Origin: Collimonas sp. OK607 | GTDB taxonomy: Bacteria > Pseudomonadota > Gammaproteobacteria > Burkholderiales > Burkholderiaceae_D | Length of the DNA stretch: 64,000 nt | Reading direction: 5' to 3' | Assembly: GCF_900111995.1 (NCBI RefSeq) | Contig: NZ_FOKF01000027.1 | Coordinates: 1 to 64,000, forward strand | In this document: in pieces, positions 18,107-26,028 of the stretch | How positions within the stretch are numbered: position 1 is the first letter of the stretch | Layout of the letters: each line of letters begins with the position of its first letter | Made by a program: the position numbers and the translations under genes | Notes under the pieces: generated by a model | Database searches by the model: none | What the model saw: only the letters and a program-made list of their open reading frames with translations | Told to the model about the DNA's origin: nothing

Positions 18107-19249
18107 ATGGCGGAAGAAAGCGATCTCGAAAAAACGGAACCCGGTTCTCCACGCCGCCTCGAAAAGGCGCGTGAAGAAGGCCAGGTTGCCCGTTCACGCG
18201 AGTTAAGCACCTTCGTCATGCTCACCACCGGCATCGGCGGCCTGTGGCTAACGGCAGTACCCATGGCCGAACACATCGGCCACGCCCTGCGCAACGGCAT
18301 GCAATTCAAGCGCGCCGCCGCCTTCGATACCTCTTACATGCTAACCCAGGCCGCCGCCGCCGCGCAGGAAGCCCTGCAAGCCCTGCTACCGCTGCTGGGC
18401 ATGATGGCACTGGCAGCACTGACAGCACCGTTAATGCTAGGCGGATGGCTGTTCTCGCCAGACGCAATAGCGCCGAAATTCTCAAAACTCAATCCGGTAG
18501 CCGGCATCGGCCGCATCTTCTCCAGCCAATCCCTGGCCGAGCTAATCAAAGCGTGCACCAAATCGGTACTGGTCGGCGGCATCGCCTACTGGGTCATTTC
18601 CCGTAACCTGGACAATCTGCTCGGCCTGCTGAGCGAGCCGATACATGGCGCCCTGGCGCACACGGTACGGCTAGTGGCCAATTGCTGCGGCCTGATCATC
18701 GCGTCGCTGCTACTGGTGGCAGCCATCGATGTGCCATACCAGCTGTGGACCTATTACCGCAAGCTACGCATGACGCGCGAAGAATTGAAACAGGAACACA
18801 AGGAAAGCGAAGGCGATCCCCATGTCAAAAGCCAGATCCGCCGTCAGCAACAGCAGATGGCGCGGCGTCGCATGATGGCCGAAGTCGCCACTGCCGACGT
18901 AGTCGTCACCAACCCGACCCACTTCGCAGTCGCCCTCAAATATAGCGACAAAGAAATGCGCGCCCCCCGGGTGGTTGCCAAAGGCACCGACCTGGTGGCG
19001 TTGCGGATTCGCGCAATCGGTGCCGAACACAAGATCCCGATGCTGGAAGCGCCACCCTTGACCCGTGCGCTATATCGCCATACCAATCTGGGCGAAGAGA
19101 TTCCGGCCGCCCTGTATACCGCGGTGGCCGAAGTGCTGGCCTGGGTATACCAATTGCAGCGCTGGCGCAGCGAAGGCGGCATTGCACCACGCACGCCAGC
19201 TGATTTACCGGTTCCCGATTCACTTGACACATTAGGAAGCCCGGCATGA
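18107..19249 (+). CDS. flhB: Flagellar type III export protein FlhB (substrate-specificity switch)
   Basis: A 380-residue inner-membrane component of the flagellar export gate. The N-terminus MAEESDLEKTEPGSPRRLEK is typical, followed by four membrane segments between about residues 30 and 210. The cytoplasmic domain contains the autocleavage motif NPTH at residues 269-272, the same numbering as the enteric protein, in TNPTHFAVALKY. Cleavage there switches export from rod/hook to filament substrates in concert with FliK. The stop overlaps the flhA start (ATGA). Confidence 0.96.
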   Translation: MAEESDLEKTEPGSPRRLEKAREEGQVARSRELSTFVMLTTGIGGLWLTAVPMAEHIGHALRNGMQFKRAAAFDTSYMLTQAAAAAQEALQALLPLLGMMALAALTAPLMLGGWLFSPDAIAPKFSKLNPVAGIGRIFSSQSLAELIKACTKSVLVGGIAYWVISRNLDNLLGLLSEPIHGALAHTVRLVANCCGLIIASLLLVAAIDVPYQLWTYYRKLRMTREELKQEHKESEGDPHVKSQIRRQQQQMARRRMMAEVATADVVVTNPTHFAVALKYSDKEMRAPRVVAKGTDLVALRIRAIGAEHKIPMLEAPPLTRALYRHTNLGEEIPAALYTAVAEVLAWVYQLQRWRSEGGIAPRTPADLPVPDSLDTLGSPA

Positions 19250-21351
19250 AGCCCGCAGGTTCAGATTTCTCATTCAGTGCCTTGCCACGCTTAGGCGCGG
19301 CGTTATTGGCAGGCAACAGCATCAAGGGCATGGCAGGCCCGGTGCTGATCATCATGATTCTCGGCATGATGATCCTGCCTTTGCCGCCGTTCCTGCTCGA
19401 TTTGCTGTTCACTTTCAATATCGCACTGTCGGTGATGGTGCTGCTGGTCAGCATGTACACCATGAAAGCACTGGATTTCGCCGCTTTCCCGGCGGTCTTG
19501 TTGTTTTCTACTTTGCTGCGCTTGTCGCTCAATGTGGCTTCCACCCGCGTGGTGCTGCTGGAAGGCCATACCGGGCCGGATGCCGCAGGCAAAGTGATCG
19601 AAGCCTTCGGCCACTTTCTGGTGGGCGGCAATTTCGCCGTCGGTATCGTGGTGTTCGTGATCCTGGTGGTGATCAATTTCATGGTCATTACCAAGGGCGC
19701 CGGACGGATTGCCGAAGTCGGCGCGCGCTTCACGCTGGATGCGATGCCAGGCAAGCAGATGGCGATCGACGCCGATTTGAACGCCGGCCTGATCGGCGAA
19801 GACGTAGCGCGTAAACGCCGCGCCGAAGTCGCCCAGGAAGCGGATTTCTACGGTTCCATGGACGGCGCCAGCAAGTTCGTGCGCGGCGATGCGGTGGCAG
19901 GTTTGCTGATCATGGTGATCAACGTGGTCGGCGGTCTCATCGTCGGCGTCGCTCAGCATGGCCTGGATATTTCGGTGGCGGCCAAGAATTACACTCTGCT
20001 GACCATTGGCGACGGTCTGGTAGCACAGATTCCGGCGCTGGTAATTTCCACTGCCGCCGGCGTGATCGTCTCGCGCGTGACTACCGATGAGGATGTCGGC
20101 CAGCAGTTGATGGGGCAGTTGTTCTCCAATCCGCAAGTGCTGTTCCTGACCGCGGGCATTATCGGCTTGATGGGGCTGGTGCCGGGCATGCCGCACGTGG
20201 CGTTCCTGATTATCTCTGGCGGCCTGGTGTATCTCGGCCGCCGTTTGCTGCAACGTACTGCCGCAGCCGAGTATGCGGCCGCAACGCCGCCGCCGTCTGC
20301 CGCTGCAGCAGAACCAGCCGACGCCAGCTGGGATGACGTGGCGCTGGTAGATCCGCTAGGGCTGGAAGTCGGCTATCGCTTGATTTCATTGGTGGACCGC
20401 AGCCAGGACGGTGAATTGTTGGGACGGATCAAGAGCATACGCAAGAAATTTGCCCAGGACATCGGGTTCCTGGTGCCGGTAGTGCACATCCGCGACAACC
20501 TCGAACTCAAGCCGAACACCTATGTGATTACCCTCAAAGGCGTACAGATCGCCCAAGGCGAAGCATGGCCGGGGCAATGGATGGCGATCAATCCGGGGCA
20601 GGTCAGCGCGACGTTGCCAGGTACCCAGACTGTCGATCCGGCGTTTGGCTTGCCGGCGTTCTGGATCGAAAACCATATGCGGGAGCAGGCGCAGATCTTT
20701 GGCTATACCGTGGTCGACGCCAGCACAGTGATCGCTACTCATCTGAATCATCTGATCCATGCCCATTCGGCCGAACTGCTGGGGCGCCAGGAAGTGCAAC
20801 AACTGCTGGACCGGGTCGGCAAGGACGCGCCGAAGCTGATCGAGGACCTGGTGCCGAAGATGCTGTCGCTGACGACCTTGCAGAAAGTACTGCAAAACTT
20901 GCTGGATGAAGGTGTTTCGATCCGCGACATGCGCACCATTCTCGATGTGCTGCTAGAGCACGGCGCCACAGTCACCGATGCCAATGAGTTGACATCGCTG
21001 GTGCGGCTGGCGCTGGGACGCGCTATCACGCAACAACTATTCCCGGGGACCGGCGAGTTGCAGGTGATTGGTCTCGACAGTTCGCTTGACAGGGTCCTGT
21101 TGCAGGCGTTGACCAACGGCAGCGGCCTGGAGCCGGGCCTGGCCGACAGTTTGTTGACACAAACACAGGTTGCGATTGCGCGCCAGGAACAGTTCGGCTT
21201 GTCGCCGGTGCTGGTTGTGCAACATCCGTTGCGTGTCTTGCTGGCGCGATTCTTACGCCGCAGCTTGCCGCAGCTGAAGGTGCTGTCGCACGCCGAAATT
21301 CCTGATACCCGCACCATCAAAGTAACCGCCACCATCGGAGGCAAGGCTTGA
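19246..21351 (+). CDS. flhA: Flagellar type III export gate protein FlhA
   Basis: A 701-residue export-gate subunit with about eight membrane helices in the first 340 residues. The conserved FHIPEP-type loop reads RIAEVGARFTLDAMPGKQMA and then IDADLNAGLI. The cytoplasmic domain (from about 365) binds chaperone-substrate complexes; PAFWI and TVVDASTVIATHL are typical. Length is as expected. Four-base overlap with flhB upstream; the flhF start overlaps its stop region, indicating coupled expression. Confidence 0.96.
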   Translation: MKPAGSDFSFSALPRLGAALLAGNSIKGMAGPVLIIMILGMMILPLPPFLLDLLFTFNIALSVMVLLVSMYTMKALDFAAFPAVLLFSTLLRLSLNVASTRVVLLEGHTGPDAAGKVIEAFGHFLVGGNFAVGIVVFVILVVINFMVITKGAGRIAEVGARFTLDAMPGKQMAIDADLNAGLIGEDVARKRRAEVAQEADFYGSMDGASKFVRGDAVAGLLIMVINVVGGLIVGVAQHGLDISVAAKNYTLLTIGDGLVAQIPALVISTAAGVIVSRVTTDEDVGQQLMGQLFSNPQVLFLTAGIIGLMGLVPGMPHVAFLIISGGLVYLGRRLLQRTAAAEYAAATPPPSAAAAEPADASWDDVALVDPLGLEVGYRLISLVDRSQDGELLGRIKSIRKKFAQDIGFLVPVVHIRDNLELKPNTYVITLKGVQIAQGEAWPGQWMAINPGQVSATLPGTQTVDPAFGLPAFWIENHMREQAQIFGYTVVDASTVIATHLNHLIHAHSAELLGRQEVQQLLDRVGKDAPKLIEDLVPKMLSLTTLQKVLQNLLDEGVSIRDMRTILDVLLEHGATVTDANELTSLVRLALGRAITQQLFPGTGELQVIGLDSSLDRVLLQALTNGSGLEPGLADSLLTQTQVAIARQEQFGLSPVLVVQHPLRVLLARFLRRSLPQLKVLSHAEIPDTRTIKVTATIGGKA

Positions 21352-23822
21352 ACATGAGTAATCACATCGACAACCGCATCACCATCGTCGCCCCTTCCGG
21401 CCGCGAAGCGCTGCGCCTGGTACGCGAACGGCTGGGAGCGGATGCGATTATCGTTTCCAACCGGGTCACCGCTGCCGGCGCCGAAATCGTCGCCATGCTG
21501 GAAACTGCGCTTGATCAACAGATCGCCTTAACACCGCCAACGGCTGTCGTACCTGTCGCAGCGGCTACCGCAGTATCCGCACCAGTATCTCCACCTGTAT
21601 CCGCGCCAGTATCGGTTGCGGTGCAGCCGGCGCCAGCCACAATCGCGTCCATCGGCAACGACAGCGTCATCAGCGAGATCCATTCGATGCGCGGCATGAT
21701 CGAAGAGCAGTTGGCCGGCCTGGTGTGGAATGACAAACAGCGCCGCGATCCGGTGCGTGGCCATCTGCTGCGCACCTTGCTGGGCGCCGGCTTCAGCGCC
21801 AGCCTGGCGAAGGCGATGCTGGATCATTTGCCGACCGGTCAGAATTTTGCGACAGGCATGGCTTGGGTCAAAGCTGAACTGGCGCGCAATCTGCCATTGA
21901 TGGAAAACGAAGACGCCATGATGGATAACGGTGGCGTCTACGCTTTGATGGGGCCGACCGGCGTCGGGAAAACCACCACTACCGCAAAGCTGGCGGCACG
22001 CTGTGTCATGCGTTTTGGCGCCGACAAGCTGGCGCTGCTGACTACTGACAGTTATCGGATCGGTGCGTTTGAACAGCTGCGCATCTACGGCAAGATCCTT
22101 GGCGTATCGGTGCATGCAGTGAAAGATGCGGCCGATTTGCGACTGGTGCTGGATGACCTGCGCGACAAGCACATGGTATTGATCGATACCGTCGGCAAGA
22201 GCCAGCGCGATCGCAGTGTCTCCGACCAGGTTGCCATGCTGTGCGGCGCCGGCCGGCCTGTCAAGCGCCTGCTGCTGCTGAATGCAGCCAGCCATGGCGA
22301 TACCTTGAACGAAGTAGTGCATGCCTATAAAGACAGCGCCGGCGGCAATCAGCTGGCGGGTTGCATCTTTACAAAAACCGACGAGGCCACCCATCCGGGG
22401 GCATTGCTGGATACCGTGATACGCCATCGGCTGCCGGTGCACTACGTCTCCTGCGGCCAGAAAGTACCGGAAAACCTGATGATCGCCGAGCGTTCCGAGC
22501 TGGTCGACAGCGTGTTCAGAAGCGCCAGCCGGAGTGCCTTGTTCGTACCTGGCGAAGCCGATCTGGGCGAGTTGCCGGCGGCGTTGAGCAATGACACCGA
22601 GCTGGCGGTTGCCGCCGCAACTACGGAGCGCTTGCGCACGCAATGCCAGCAATTGATCCGGGTATTGGCGCATGATGCTGAAGAGCTGGCGGTCAACGCT
22701 GCTGCGCTGACCAACGGCAAGATCGGTTTCGAGGCAAGCAGCGCATTGTGGCGTGACATGGCAGACGACAGCGTCGGCAGCCAAGAGACGAGCCACAAGC
22801 TGTTGATGCAAGCGAATACAGAAATTGAGACTGCTTGCGCTACCTATGTGCTTGCGATCAGTGGCAAGACTGAATTGACTGCCAGCCGCAGCGGCGATGC
22901 CTACACTCTGCAATCCAGCGTAGTGCTGTCAGACCGCGATGGCATGCCGCTGGCGGCACCACATCAATTGTTGTCTACTGCGCGTGCGGCCGACACAGCG
23001 GGCGCCCTGCCAACCCCGGCGCAGCGCCAGCTAGCGTGGATTAGCAAGCAGGATTTCGGCAAGCCTCTGGTACACCTGCTCGACAGAATGCCGGCGTCAG
23101 ATACGATTCAATCCTGGCAAGCTGATGGCCTGCTTTGGCTGACACGAGCGCGCGGCACGACCAGTGTGAAAGACGGCGCCGGCAAGACGACACTCGCAAA
23201 ATTGACTACGCAGCTGACCTTCAGTGCTCCCCAGGAGGTCGTCTACAAAGGCAAACCGGCGCAACAAACGCTGGCAGAGGTTGCTGTCAATTTGCCAGGC
23301 GACGACACAATGCATGGCGCGTACCTGTCCAACTTGCGTTGCGTGGTCTCGCGCATTGCCGATCCACACAACGGCAAGCTGCTTGCCAGCTGGTATTTGC
23401 TGAGCAATGTCGCGTCGTCGGCGACGGCATCGCAACTTGTGGCATGGACTTGCTGGAAACAAGCCGCCGATCCCTATTACAAACTGCTTAAACAGGCCAT
23501 CCAGCAACTTGATGCTTGCACTGAACCAGGTGACGGCCACATGCAGAAGCGGCTGTTGATTGCGGCGCAGGTCAGCACCACCATTTGGCGTTTGGCGCAC
23601 AGGCAGGATGGCTGGGCTGCTGCGGCACGCGCGCTTTTGGCGCAACTGGCGGGGCACCGGATACGTTCCGGCGCTATCACTGTCGCCTCCACGGCGGGGC
23701 TGTTTGAAGGATTCGGCAAATTGATCGCAGTGCTGGATGCGTTGGCGCTGGATGTCGAAAATGCGATTGACGCAACGCCTGCTCCTGCTGCGGCAAGCAG
23801 CGCCGCAGCGTTGCAAGGTTGA
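21348..23822 (+). CDS. flhF: FlhF SRP-type GTPase fused to a transposase-like C-terminal domain
   Basis: An 824-residue protein, nearly twice usual FlhF length (about 380-500). Residues 1-60 match the FlhF N-terminus (SGREALRLVRERLGADAIIV). Residues 195-395 are the SRP-type GTPase: P-loop GPTGVGKTTT 202-211, DTVGKSQRD, and TKTD 342-345. FlhF positions the flagellar basal body. From about residue 400 to 805 a second module reads like an IS4/Tn5-type transposase: GEADLGE (402-408), YVLAISGKTEL (505-510), PLVHLLDRM (Asp579), VVYKGKPAQQTLAEVAV, ASWYLLSNV (Trp682), DPYYKLLK (708-715), KRLLIAA (734). The first catalytic Asp appears replaced by Gly506 and the final Glu by Asp708. Start: TTG 21348 has GGAGG at 6 bases; ATG 21354 at 12 bases is the alternative. 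The frame is uninterrupted. Confidence 0.88.
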   Translation: MNMSNHIDNRITIVAPSGREALRLVRERLGADAIIVSNRVTAAGAEIVAMLETALDQQIALTPPTAVVPVAAATAVSAPVSPPVSAPVSVAVQPAPATIASIGNDSVISEIHSMRGMIEEQLAGLVWNDKQRRDPVRGHLLRTLLGAGFSASLAKAMLDHLPTGQNFATGMAWVKAELARNLPLMENEDAMMDNGGVYALMGPTGVGKTTTTAKLAARCVMRFGADKLALLTTDSYRIGAFEQLRIYGKILGVSVHAVKDAADLRLVLDDLRDKHMVLIDTVGKSQRDRSVSDQVAMLCGAGRPVKRLLLLNAASHGDTLNEVVHAYKDSAGGNQLAGCIFTKTDEATHPGALLDTVIRHRLPVHYVSCGQKVPENLMIAERSELVDSVFRSASRSALFVPGEADLGELPAALSNDTELAVAAATTERLRTQCQQLIRVLAHDAEELAVNAAALTNGKIGFEASSALWRDMADDSVGSQETSHKLLMQANTEIETACATYVLAISGKTELTASRSGDAYTLQSSVVLSDRDGMPLAAPHQLLSTARAADTAGALPTPAQRQLAWISKQDFGKPLVHLLDRMPASDTIQSWQADGLLWLTRARGTTSVKDGAGKTTLAKLTTQLTFSAPQEVVYKGKPAQQTLAEVAVNLPGDDTMHGAYLSNLRCVVSRIADPHNGKLLASWYLLSNVASSATASQLVAWTCWKQAADPYYKLLKQAIQQLDACTEPGDGHMQKRLLIAAQVSTTIWRLAHRQDGWAAAARALLAQLAGHRIRSGAITVASTAGLFEGFGKLIAVLDALALDVENAIDATPAPAAASSAAALQG

Positions 23823-23832
23823 GGTGGCAGCT

Positions 23833-24663
23833 TTGAACAAAGTGGTCAGCGATCAGGCAGACGGTTTGCGCTGCCTGATGGCGCAGCATTCAGGTATGCA
23901 CGCTGCACAAGTCATTGCATTGGTCGGCAGCAGTCCTCGGGTTGGCGTCACGAGTGTGGCGTTGAACCTGGCTGCGGCTCTGGTGCAACAAGGAAAGGAA
24001 GTGTTGTTGCTGGATGAGCAGAGCGGGGCGCAGTCGGCCACTGCGATGTCGGCGGCAGATGCGGCCGGTAGCTGGTCGGAGGTTGTTGTCGGTGGCGTGC
24101 CGCTGTCGGTTGCGGCATCGCGCATGGCTTGCGGCGCGTTGTTGTTGCGAGTGTCCAAAGACGATTCGACTGCAGCTGCAGTCGAGGTGCGCAGCGTGTT
24201 TCAAGGCCAGGTAATCCTGATCGACGCCAGCCTTGATGAAAACGGCGCGTTGTCGCCTTTGGCCGCACAGGCCGACGATGTGGTTGTGGTGTTGCAGCCG
24301 CAGGCGGCATCGATTACCGCGGCTTACACCTGTATCAAGCAATTGCACTATGCGCACGCGTTGCAGCGGTTGAGAATCATGGTCAATCTGGCGGCGGGCA
24401 TGCCGGAAGCGCAGCGCGTATTGAGCAACCTGATCGCTACCGGCAGCCGTTATCTGGGATTGGCGCTGGAATCTGCCGGTTGCGTGGCGGCGGATCCGTA
24501 TCTGGTACGCGCCCAAGGTCTGAAACTGAGCGTGGTAGAGGCATTCCAGACCAGTGTAGCGGCGGTCGATTTCCGTCGCATGGCTGCGCAGCTGCTGCAA
24601 TGGCCCCGAATTGTTGCCACCCCGGTCGCCACTAAAGTTGCAGCCACCGTGAGGGCGCACTGA
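23833..24663 (+). CDS. flhG: FlhG/FleN-type ParA-like flagellar number regulator with degenerate P-loop
   Basis: A 276-residue MinD/ParA-like protein that partners FlhF in limiting flagellar number. The N-terminus MNKVVSDQADGLRCLM is the FlhG activator helix. The region AQVIALVGSSPRVGVTSVAL is where KGGxGKT should be, but both lysines are missing. The Walker B-like strand reads VILIDASLDENG. I chose TTG 23833 as start because GAGG lies 8 bases upstream (overlapping the flhF stop) and it begins exactly at the family N-terminus; GTG 23824 is the alternative. It follows flhF by 10 bases and is followed by fliA. Confidence 0.85.
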   Translation: MNKVVSDQADGLRCLMAQHSGMHAAQVIALVGSSPRVGVTSVALNLAAALVQQGKEVLLLDEQSGAQSATAMSAADAAGSWSEVVVGGVPLSVAASRMACGALLLRVSKDDSTAAAVEVRSVFQGQVILIDASLDENGALSPLAAQADDVVVVLQPQAASITAAYTCIKQLHYAHALQRLRIMVNLAAGMPEAQRVLSNLIATGSRYLGLALESAGCVAADPYLVRAQGLKLSVVEAFQTSVAAVDFRRMAAQLLQWPRIVATPVATKVAATVRAH

Positions 24664-24731: not shown

Positions 24732-25475
24732 ATGTATACAGCTCAGGGAAAAATAGATAAATCCGATACGCTGGTGAAGTACGCGCCACTGGTGCGGCGC
24801 CTGGCGTTGCAGCTGATTGCGAAATTGCCGGCCAGCGTGGAACTGGACGACATGATCCAGGCCGGCATGCTGGGTTTGCTGGATGCCGCCAATCGTTATC
24901 AGGATGACCAGGGCGCGCAATTCGAAACCTATGCCAGCCAGCGCATTCGAGGTGCGATGCTGGATGAACTGCGCGCCAACGACTGGTTGTCGCGCGGCTT
25001 GCGGCAATCCTCGCGTAAGGTAGATGCGGCGGTGCAGGCATTGGAGCAGAAACTGTCGCGCTCGCCCACCGAACGTGAAATCGCAGCATCCATGCAACTG
25101 TCTTTGGAAGACTATCAGCATCTGCTGCAGGAAATTCACGGTTCGCAACTGGTGTATTACGAAGACTGCGAAGGCGGCAGCAACGAAAATTCCTTTCTCG
25201 ACCGGCAGAACGGTACTGGCGATCGCTGCAGTGCTAACGATCCACTGCAGCGGATGCTGGATAGCGGCATGCGCCATATGCTGGTGGACGCGATTGGCCT
25301 GATGCCGGAGCGTGAGCGGCTGTTGCTCAGTTTGTATTACGAGCAAGAGATGAATTTGCGTGAAATCGGCGCCGTGCTGGAGGTCAGCCAGTCACGGGTG
25401 TGTCAGCTGCATAGCCAGGCTATCAGCCGCTTACGGGTGCGTTTGAGCGAAGCCAGCTGGAGCGAGGTAGCCTGA
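24732..25475 (+). CDS. fliA: Flagellar sigma factor FliA (sigma-28)
   Basis: The 247-residue RNA polymerase sigma factor directs late flagellar and chemotaxis genes. Region 2 shows YAPLVRRLALQLIAKLPASV, LDDMIQAGMLGLLDA and FETYASQRIRGAMLDELR. Region 3 has SPTEREIAASM, and region 4 has LYYEQEMNLREIGAVLEVSQ with SRVCQLHSQAI. It is antagonised by FlgM (26532-26876). Candidate target promoters are at 11695, 26905, 35806 and 56254. Confidence 0.96.
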   Translation: MYTAQGKIDKSDTLVKYAPLVRRLALQLIAKLPASVELDDMIQAGMLGLLDAANRYQDDQGAQFETYASQRIRGAMLDELRANDWLSRGLRQSSRKVDAAVQALEQKLSRSPTEREIAASMQLSLEDYQHLLQEIHGSQLVYYEDCEGGSNENSFLDRQNGTGDRCSANDPLQRMLDSGMRHMLVDAIGLMPERERLLLSLYYEQEMNLREIGAVLEVSQSRVCQLHSQAISRLRVRLSEASWSEVA

Positions 25476-25476
25476 G

Positions 25477-26028
25477 ATGGCGGTCTCGTCTTACGGCGTA
25501 TCCAGATCGCGCGGATTATTGCGCAATTTATGTGTCGCTGCTTCCTGCTTGCTGGTGTTGCCGGCCGCAAGTGTCTATGGCGGCGACAGGCCAGCGGCGG
25601 CAATCAGTCTGAGCACTTATTTCGAGCGTAACAAAAATTTGGTGGCCGGCCCCGGCGCCATGCAACTTGACAGCGGCGCCATCACCGGTAGCGCCAGTCA
25701 AGTTACCGGTTCCTGGAGCAGTTCCACTTCTGTGCCGGCAATGTTCCGACGTGGCGTGCATTATCAATCGGCCCAGATTGCTCCGGTCGGCGGGGGGATC
25801 AATGCAACCTCGAAAACGCACCGGGTCGGCTGGCAATACAGCTTCCTGACTGCGCCGCCCGCCGGTATCCATGCTTACCTGTGCAATTACGCCAGATGCG
25901 TCGGTCTGACCAGCGTCAGCGGCAGCGGTTTTTCGAATTTTGTATTTGCTTTTGTTATCGACGGCCGAGGCTCCTTGACCCCCGCGTTGCAGGGATCGGC
26001 CAGCCAGGTATTGGTCAGCTACAAATAG
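25477..26028 (+). CDS. flhE: FlhE-like periplasmic flagellar protein
   Basis: A 183-residue exported protein directly after fliA (ATG one base past the fliA stop). An N-terminal signal peptide covers about residues 15-35 (NLCVAASCLLVLPAASVYGG). The C-terminal half matches the FlhE pattern: VGWQYSFLTAPPAGIHAYLC, then NYARCV with the conserved cysteine pair, and GRGSLTPALQGSASQVLVSY. Enteric FlhE, from memory, has WRYQL..PTPSGLRVRLC..SRCV and GGRLIPAL...EVIVNYR, which aligns in order. FlhE has been proposed as a periplasmic regulator or plug of flagellar export. Its usual neighbour is flhA; here it sits after fliA. Confidence 0.72.
   Translation: MAVSSYGVSRSRGLLRNLCVAASCLLVLPAASVYGGDRPAAAISLSTYFERNKNLVAGPGAMQLDSGAITGSASQVTGSWSSSTSVPAMFRRGVHYQSAQIAPVGGGINATSKTHRVGWQYSFLTAPPAGIHAYLCNYARCVGLTSVSGSGFSNFVFAFVIDGRGSLTPALQGSASQVLVSYK

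Follow-up and report, generated by a model that had tools for sequence, protein, structure and literature searches.

FlhF is the protein thought to decide the site of flagellar building, and in known cases it acts at the membrane. Most known examples of transposases recruited to host functions, such as RAG1 and SETMAR, are eukaryotic. The dimer interface of the Tn5 transposase is formed by its C-terminal part, and Inh, a naturally truncated and inactive Tn5 protein, acts by pairing. The FlhF of other bacteria has a B-N-G layout and works as a GTP-dependent dimer, and DQAxxLR is the FlhF-activating motif of FlhG, according to PMC12826062.

In the present study, an flhF lineage of soil and water bacteria is described that carries a domesticated transposase of the IS4/Tn5 type at its C terminus, with the catalytic triad lost, a predicted Tn5 fold, and purifying selection acting on the added part. 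Here a GTPase at the core of bacterial cell architecture has incorporated a transposase, and the flagellar lineage concerned spans several families. A literature search, which covered titles and abstract openings and few subscription journals, found no paper naming a transposase module of FlhF, and no usable source on the flagellation of Collimonas was found in the literature.

The fused flhF gene and its neighbourhood

The window, i.e., the whole stretch of 64,000 nucleotides of Collimonas sp. OK607 that was analysed, has cheB, cheY, cheZ, flhB, and flhA upstream of flhF, and flhG, fliA, and flhE downstream, followed by flgN, flgM, and flgA on the other strand. The features are as follows.

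18107..19249, + strand: flhB (TIGR00328, 406.8 bits)
19246..21351, + strand: flhA, directly upstream of flhF (TIGR01398, 906.6 bits; cut-off 772.1)
21348..23822, + strand: flhF with the transposase-derived module, 824 codons, TTG start, in-frame ATG at 21354
21630..22532, + strand: FlhF NG/GTPase part, about residues 95-395 (SRP54 GTPase, E 1.1e-33)
22554..23762, + strand: transposase-derived module of Tn5/IS4 type, catalytically dead as judged from its residues, about residues 403-805
23833..24663, + strand: flhG, likely start TTG 23833, motif DQADGLR, Walker A without Lys
24732..25475, + strand: fliA (sigma 28; NF005413, 302 bits)
25477..26028, + strand: flhE (NF047946, E 1.8e-14, 53.6 bits, below the cut-off of 150)

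The frame at 21348-23822 is open over all of its 824 codons, as first annotated. At 21348, the TTG shares bases with the flhA stop (TTGA); of 11 fused genes inspected for it, ten retain this TTG, and the start pattern failed in the eleventh (L012). Because the next methionine lies at least 43 codons further on in three of the ten genes with TTG, TTG 21348 is the likely start and ATG 21354 is not. Residues 1-395 were correctly recognised as FlhF by the first-pass annotation; they match TIGR03499 with 250.8 bits (cut-off 174.15) as well as the SRP54 GTPase family, and contain the motifs GPTGVGKTTTT (G1), DSYRIGA (G2), DTVG (G3), and TKTDE (G4). The SRP-type motifs G1-G4 are intact in all 25 long FlhFs. 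The distance from the P-loop to the protein end is 603-672 residues in long FlhFs versus 205-288 in short FlhFs; this motif-based comparison missed six of the 82 FlhF loci, all six of which are included in the NG-part tree discussed below. The model NF011312 (PRK14723, 768 positions) matches the window protein at E 1e-262 (residues 13-799, model positions 6-766), with a score of 874 bits that lies below its cut-off of 951.

The likely ribosome site of flhG, GAGGTGG (23821-23827, by eye), overlaps the flhF stop at 23820-23822, in agreement with the earlier reading. The window FlhG retains the DQAxxLR motif, and its Walker A motif reads SSPRVGVTS, which has no lysine; the product has no Pfam or NCBIfam match at 1e-5. 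Many FlhGs of the order show like losses, whether the neighbouring FlhF is long or short. Downstream of flhF, 21 of the 25 long-FlhF loci have the FlhG activator motif. The location of flhF is between flhA and flhG-fliA, with the exception of four loci of family f4 (L212, L213, L214, and L132), where flhG, fliA, and flhE were not found behind flhF. We also note that in the f4 loci flgN lies on the other strand next to flhF, either directly or, in L213, after two small open frames.

Relationship of the C-terminal module to transposases

The residues behind the GTPase part, which most searches used as a query of their own, had been read as a complete transposase domain of the IS4/Tn5 type. The homology was recovered by sequence and profile searches, while "complete" has to be withdrawn in that no Pfam DNA-binding or dimerisation domain scores. 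A Pfam search of the window module at E 1 gave no match, including PF14706 (DNA-binding) and PF02281 (dimerisation). The same search of 12 aligned modules returned no transposase family, neither of these two domains, and five scattered weak matches in one member each. The NCBIfam model IS4_3 matches six of the 12 modules with a best E of 6.1e-8, and the window module at E 0.011. Searching 72,556 plasmid records with the fused protein (tblastn) matched annotated transposase genes of Methylotuvimicrobium (E 8e-19, 33%), Acinetobacter (6e-18), and Aeromonas/Citrobacter (3e-13); in the reverse direction, one such plasmid transposase finds the window gene at E 1e-21. Three plasmid transposases match the C-terminal half of NF011312 at E 3.5e-32, 1.4e-21, and 5.2e-27, and their best matches to transposase models are weaker (1.5e-17, 7.4e-19, and 1.1e-22, respectively). 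Positions about 416-767 of NF011312 are transposase-derived, and the transposase matches fall below its cut-off; partial matches to this model can mislead annotation.

Comparison of the modules with the nearest transposases by hhalign yielded E 2.6e-43 over 372 columns, and with the IS4_3 group E 3.4e-7 at a probability of 93%. The controls reached a maximum probability of 0.77% in 20 column shuffles and 0.09% with the reversed alignment. The E of 2.6e-43 against these shuffled and reversed controls indicates that the resemblance to transposases is not due to chance. Tn5 was not found among PDB chains by phmmer with a single module sequence (best E 2.2) or by a 12-row module profile (best E 0.76), and a first scan of genome contigs with a single module sequence found no relative. 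The contig scan with the module alignment A1 recovered 12 loci, every one of which is an FlhF fusion, from Collimonas, Herminiimonas, Polaromonas, Rhodoferax, and one unclassified Burkholderiales.

Structures were predicted as single chains for the window module and for a distant module that is 25% identical to it (pLDDT 84.5, pTM 0.85). As anticipated from the sequence motifs, an RNase H-like Tn5 fold is predicted for both. The top six Foldseek matches of each model are all Tn5, and the best match by Z is Tn5 Inh (1b7e) in both cases, with values of 23.9 for the window module and 22.3 for the distant module. The structural alignment to Tn5 starts near chain residues 4-7 and extends to residue 472 (window) or 469 (distant), so that both Tn5 ends are spanned despite the lack of a Pfam end-domain match. 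AlphaFold2 may know Tn5 from its training, but the sequence evidence is independent of it.

Loss of the catalytic residues and search for transposon ends

The positions assigned at first pass to the three catalytic residues are borne out by an alignment of 25 modules and 16 transposases, to which the following counts refer.

22863..22865, + strand: Gly506, aligned with the first catalytic Asp; Asp present in none of the 25 fusions and 10 of 16 transposases
23082..23084, + strand: Asp579, aligned with the second catalytic Asp and retained; Asp present in 11 of 25 fusions and all 16 transposases
23469..23471, + strand: Asp708, aligned with the catalytic Glu; Glu present in 10 of 25 fusions and all 16 transposases

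The first column is occupied by Gly in 22 of the 25 modules, and the free transposases without Asp in this column are gapped, truncated, or different there. Retention of the second Asp and replacement of the third acidic residue by Asp were described correctly for the window; neither is general, since the former is kept in just 11 fusions and Glu still stands in ten. All three residues of the D-D-E triad occur together in none of the fusions. Judged from these residues, the module is a catalytically dead transposase. Y-R-E-K is the name of the signature around the last acidic residue of IS4/Tn5-type transposases. These places read T-K-D-K in the window and Y-R-E-K in all 16 free transposases, which were selected with a pattern demanding part of Y-R-E-K.

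As in the initial inspection, no convincing insertion-sequence ends are present. A single imperfect inverted pair of 15 matches in 16 bases (22694-22709 and 23798-23813) scores above the maximum of 14 obtained both in 20 shuffles and in 38 other window pairs; the score is 16 versus 15 at 20 bases, and falls within the shuffles at 24 bases (17 versus 18). The right copy is situated at the module end. The pair is doubtful as transposon ends because the left copy is inside the transposase-homologous part, because the 24-base score is within the shuffles, and because the pair is not conserved, the search in eight other Collimonas genes reaching only 12-14 of 16. The module occupies one place in the window genome at E 0.001, and the same flhF position in relatives, whereas IS4/Tn5-type transposases are mobile and mostly multicopy.

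Possible function of the module

The reading that we favour, with a probability of roughly 0.5, is that a domesticated, catalytically dead transposase on flhF acts as a protein platform rather than an enzyme. The module would be a dimerisation and docking platform; the role of a "flagellar regulator", as originally suggested, is putative. Because the C-terminal part of Tn5 dimerises, Inh acts by pairing, and FlhF itself dimerises in a GTP-dependent manner, a dead transposase placed after the G domain would bring two GTPases together; it would also add a docking surface. FlhF paired or docked in this manner would have a changed timing of dimerisation and a changed recruitment target, which would shift where and how many flagella start. 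That PF02281, the Pfam dimerisation domain, does not score argues against a platform. The state of FlhG would fit an altered switch, in that four f4 loci are without the flhG motif and the window FlhG is without the Walker A lysine, but this argument is weak because FlhGs beside short FlhFs are often degenerate too. The module is a single deletable piece, and the effect of its deletion on flagellar place and number is measurable.

It is possible, but on balance unlikely, that the module still binds DNA without cutting it, so that it would anchor FlhF to the nucleoid or a site on the chromosome, or would make FlhF a regulator of flagellar gene transcription. Trp468 and Arg469, located before the first catalytic residue, are each conserved in at least 22 of the 25 modules and align by eye with WRFF of transposase L140, and the alignment of both models to near the Tn5 start (chain residues 4-7) points in the same direction. 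On the other side, the modules have net charges of -7 to +7 and a median pI of 7.9 versus 9.2 for the free transposases (Mann-Whitney p 1.8e-4, a guide only, as the rows are related and not independent), two of which, L098 and L138, have a net charge as low as the modules. This lowering of positive charge relative to most free transposases argues for weakened DNA binding. The lack of a PF14706 match at E 1 and the membrane site at which FlhF acts in known cases also count against DNA binding.

Distribution and lineage of the fusion

The long form of FlhF was found in the length survey and is not confined to Oxalobacteraceae. At least 12 of 294 genomes of the window's family have a whole-length NF011312 match, among matches listed to E about 5e-149; these are nine Collimonas, Herminiimonas sp. 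CN, and two of another genus. In the order, at least seven are long among the 196 of 300 genomes that match the model at E 1e-40 (matches listed to E about 4e-118). The class sample has 118 of 234 genomes matching NF011312 at E 1e-40, all of which except the window (117, two of them from the window's order) reach no further than position 489 of the 768. In the plasmid collection, the match extends through residue 749 in four Cupriavidus records (2.5-2.8 Mb), and the one of these read whole, the C. metallidurans CH34 megaplasmid, has a fusion frame of 828 residues. The match to the plasmid-borne flhF of Burkholderia glumae is limited to residues 97-412.

Among 15 Collimonas genomes, all nine that bear FlhF carry the fusion. 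FlhF, FlhC, and flagellar FlhA over the cut-off are absent from the other six (G001, G002, G005, G006, G011, and G014, one of 1.7 Mb), two of which keep FlhA/SctV-like relatives below the cut-off. The genus may have lost its flagella on more than one occasion.

The FlhF, module, and first FlhA trees were obtained by quick searches, and the FlhA tree with E. coli by a careful search. The NG-part tree of 82 rows places all 25 long FlhFs, along with three short FlhFs of family f31, whose designation here as "Burkholderia-type" is an inferred naming, on one side of a branch with a support of 98. The other short FlhFs, many from the window's own family, lie outside that branch. The same split is observed in the FlhA tree, in which 19 long and one short stand together with a support of 99; this tree comprises 67 of the 82 rows, FlhA not having been caught in 15 (among them L105, L148-L152, L154, and L155). 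In the module tree, which uses 12 of the 16 transposases, the modules are on one side of the 12 free transposases in a branch with a support of 91 that is not starred.

As far as these trees can tell, a single fusion in the ancestor of one Burkholderiales flagellar-cluster lineage is most likely, the cluster having moved between families. The well-supported branches of the careful FlhA tree force two changes, for which one fusion and one loss, in the Burkholderia-type branch, is the simplest history; two gains are possible. Several independent fusions of related transposases to flhF are improbable in our estimation: long and short forms do both occur within the FlhF clade, and the module branch is not starred, but the modules stand together against the free transposases (support 91), and two changes suffice for each of the FlhF and FlhA trees. 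We also note a mixture within genus g13, in which Herminiimonas sp. CN (L208) has a long-FlhF cluster and three others (L166-L168) have the short type; this suggests replacement of the whole flagellar locus.

Selection on the module

The module has a median dN/dS (Nei-Gojobori) of 0.222 (0.158-0.342) in 36 Collimonas pairs, where the NG part has 0.056, and of 0.252 in 15 Polaromonas/Rhodoferax pairs, where the NG part has 0.098. The Collimonas median of 0.22 denotes purifying selection, in keeping with the domestication proposed at first pass. The module is constrained, less so than the GTPase part. Its rate of evolution is about four times that of the NG domain (0.22 versus 0.056), and it may do little, which counts against a platform.

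The faster evolution would also suit a tolerated passenger, i.e., a transposase that was inserted at the 3' end, is read in frame, and is drifting, and so would its absence from Burkholderia-type members of the same lineage. We assign this explanation a low probability in view of the dN/dS of 0.16-0.34 in each of the 36 Collimonas pairs, the about 400 module codons that are open in all 25 distinct genes across several families, and the fold that is predicted to be intact in the far-diverged module. An assembly or sequencing artefact joining two genes, or a fresh insertion (already discounted in the first-pass annotation), has next to no probability, since the imperfect, non-conserved 16-base pair near the module is set against the same fusion in separate records of Collimonas, Herminiimonas, Polaromonas, Rhodoferax, and Cupriavidus, and this conservation across genera refutes it.

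Relation to the enteric flagellar cluster

In PMC8042155, whose main text does not mention FlhF, the enteric flagellum is traced to a cluster of Burkholderiaceae, with Bordetella, Cupriavidus, and Burkholderia. According to PMC11247099, flhE was recruited to the flagellar operon in a Burkholderiaceae ancestor, and flhF and flhG are sometimes situated between flhA and flhE. PMC12826062 states that flhF and flhG were either not transferred or soon lost in the enteric cluster.

In the careful tree, the FlhA of E. coli K-12 is placed inside the long lineage, in a group of 21 rows (19 long, one short, and E. coli) with a support of 100/99, on a branch that is long within that tree. The gene order is cheY-cheZ-flhB-flhA-flhE in E. 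coli, with flhE directly after flhA, and cheY-cheZ-flhB-flhA-flhF-flhG-fliA-flhE in the window, whose flhE is 29% identical to that of E. coli (tblastn, E 1e-8). A search for flhE by tblastn at 1e-3, for which two diverged queries were used, recovered the gene from the window and from four of the eight long-lineage loci examined (L208, L209, L211, and L217); it was not detected in L210, three f4 loci, any of seven short-lineage loci, or either of two short f31 loci. The E. coli flagellar genes appear, from these comparisons, to come from the same branch as the fused flhF. The placement of E. coli FlhA, the gene order, and flhE fit PMC8042155 and PMC11247099.

The fusion offers a way into the question of how FlhF and FlhG became dispensable to the enteric flagellar cluster. 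A more speculative and rather doubtful scenario is that, in one Burkholderiales lineage, capture of a Tn5-like transposase reprogrammed the polar-placement GTPase FlhF so that flagella were no longer tied to the pole and FlhG was less needed, and that E. coli and Salmonella inherited the cluster and then lost flhF and flhG. If this were true, the peritrichous flagella of the best-studied bacteria would trace to a locus with a transposon-altered pole switch. According to PMC7064773, Bordetella bronchiseptica carries a predicted FlhF despite its peritrichous flagella.

Comparison with known systems

The FlhF of other bacteria has the FlhF model, the G1-G4 motifs, and the order flhA-flhF-flhG-fliA in common with the window. 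Ordinary FlhF stops about 220 residues past the P-loop, whereas the fused FlhFs continue for 603-672 residues. NF011312 already covers the long form, including that of the window, under the name "flagellar biosynthesis regulator FlhF" only, with no mention of a transposase, and databases file the fused protein simply as FlhF.

The closest free relatives found are the IS4-type plasmid transposases L138-L140 (Methylotuvimicrobium, Acinetobacter, Aeromonas, Citrobacter, and Serratia), which are about 23-33% identical to the modules. The catalytic residues are present in the free transposases L140 and L169, while L139 has Asn at the first position and L138 is without the region of the first catalytic residue. 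These transposases are free-standing, in contrast to the module, which is fused behind a GTPase. Tn5 transposase and its inhibitor Inh (PDB 1mus and 1b7e) share 13-17% identity with the module in the structural alignment. Unlike Tn5, the module has neither the D-D-E triad nor convincing transposon ends, and it is carried as the C-terminal part of a GTPase.
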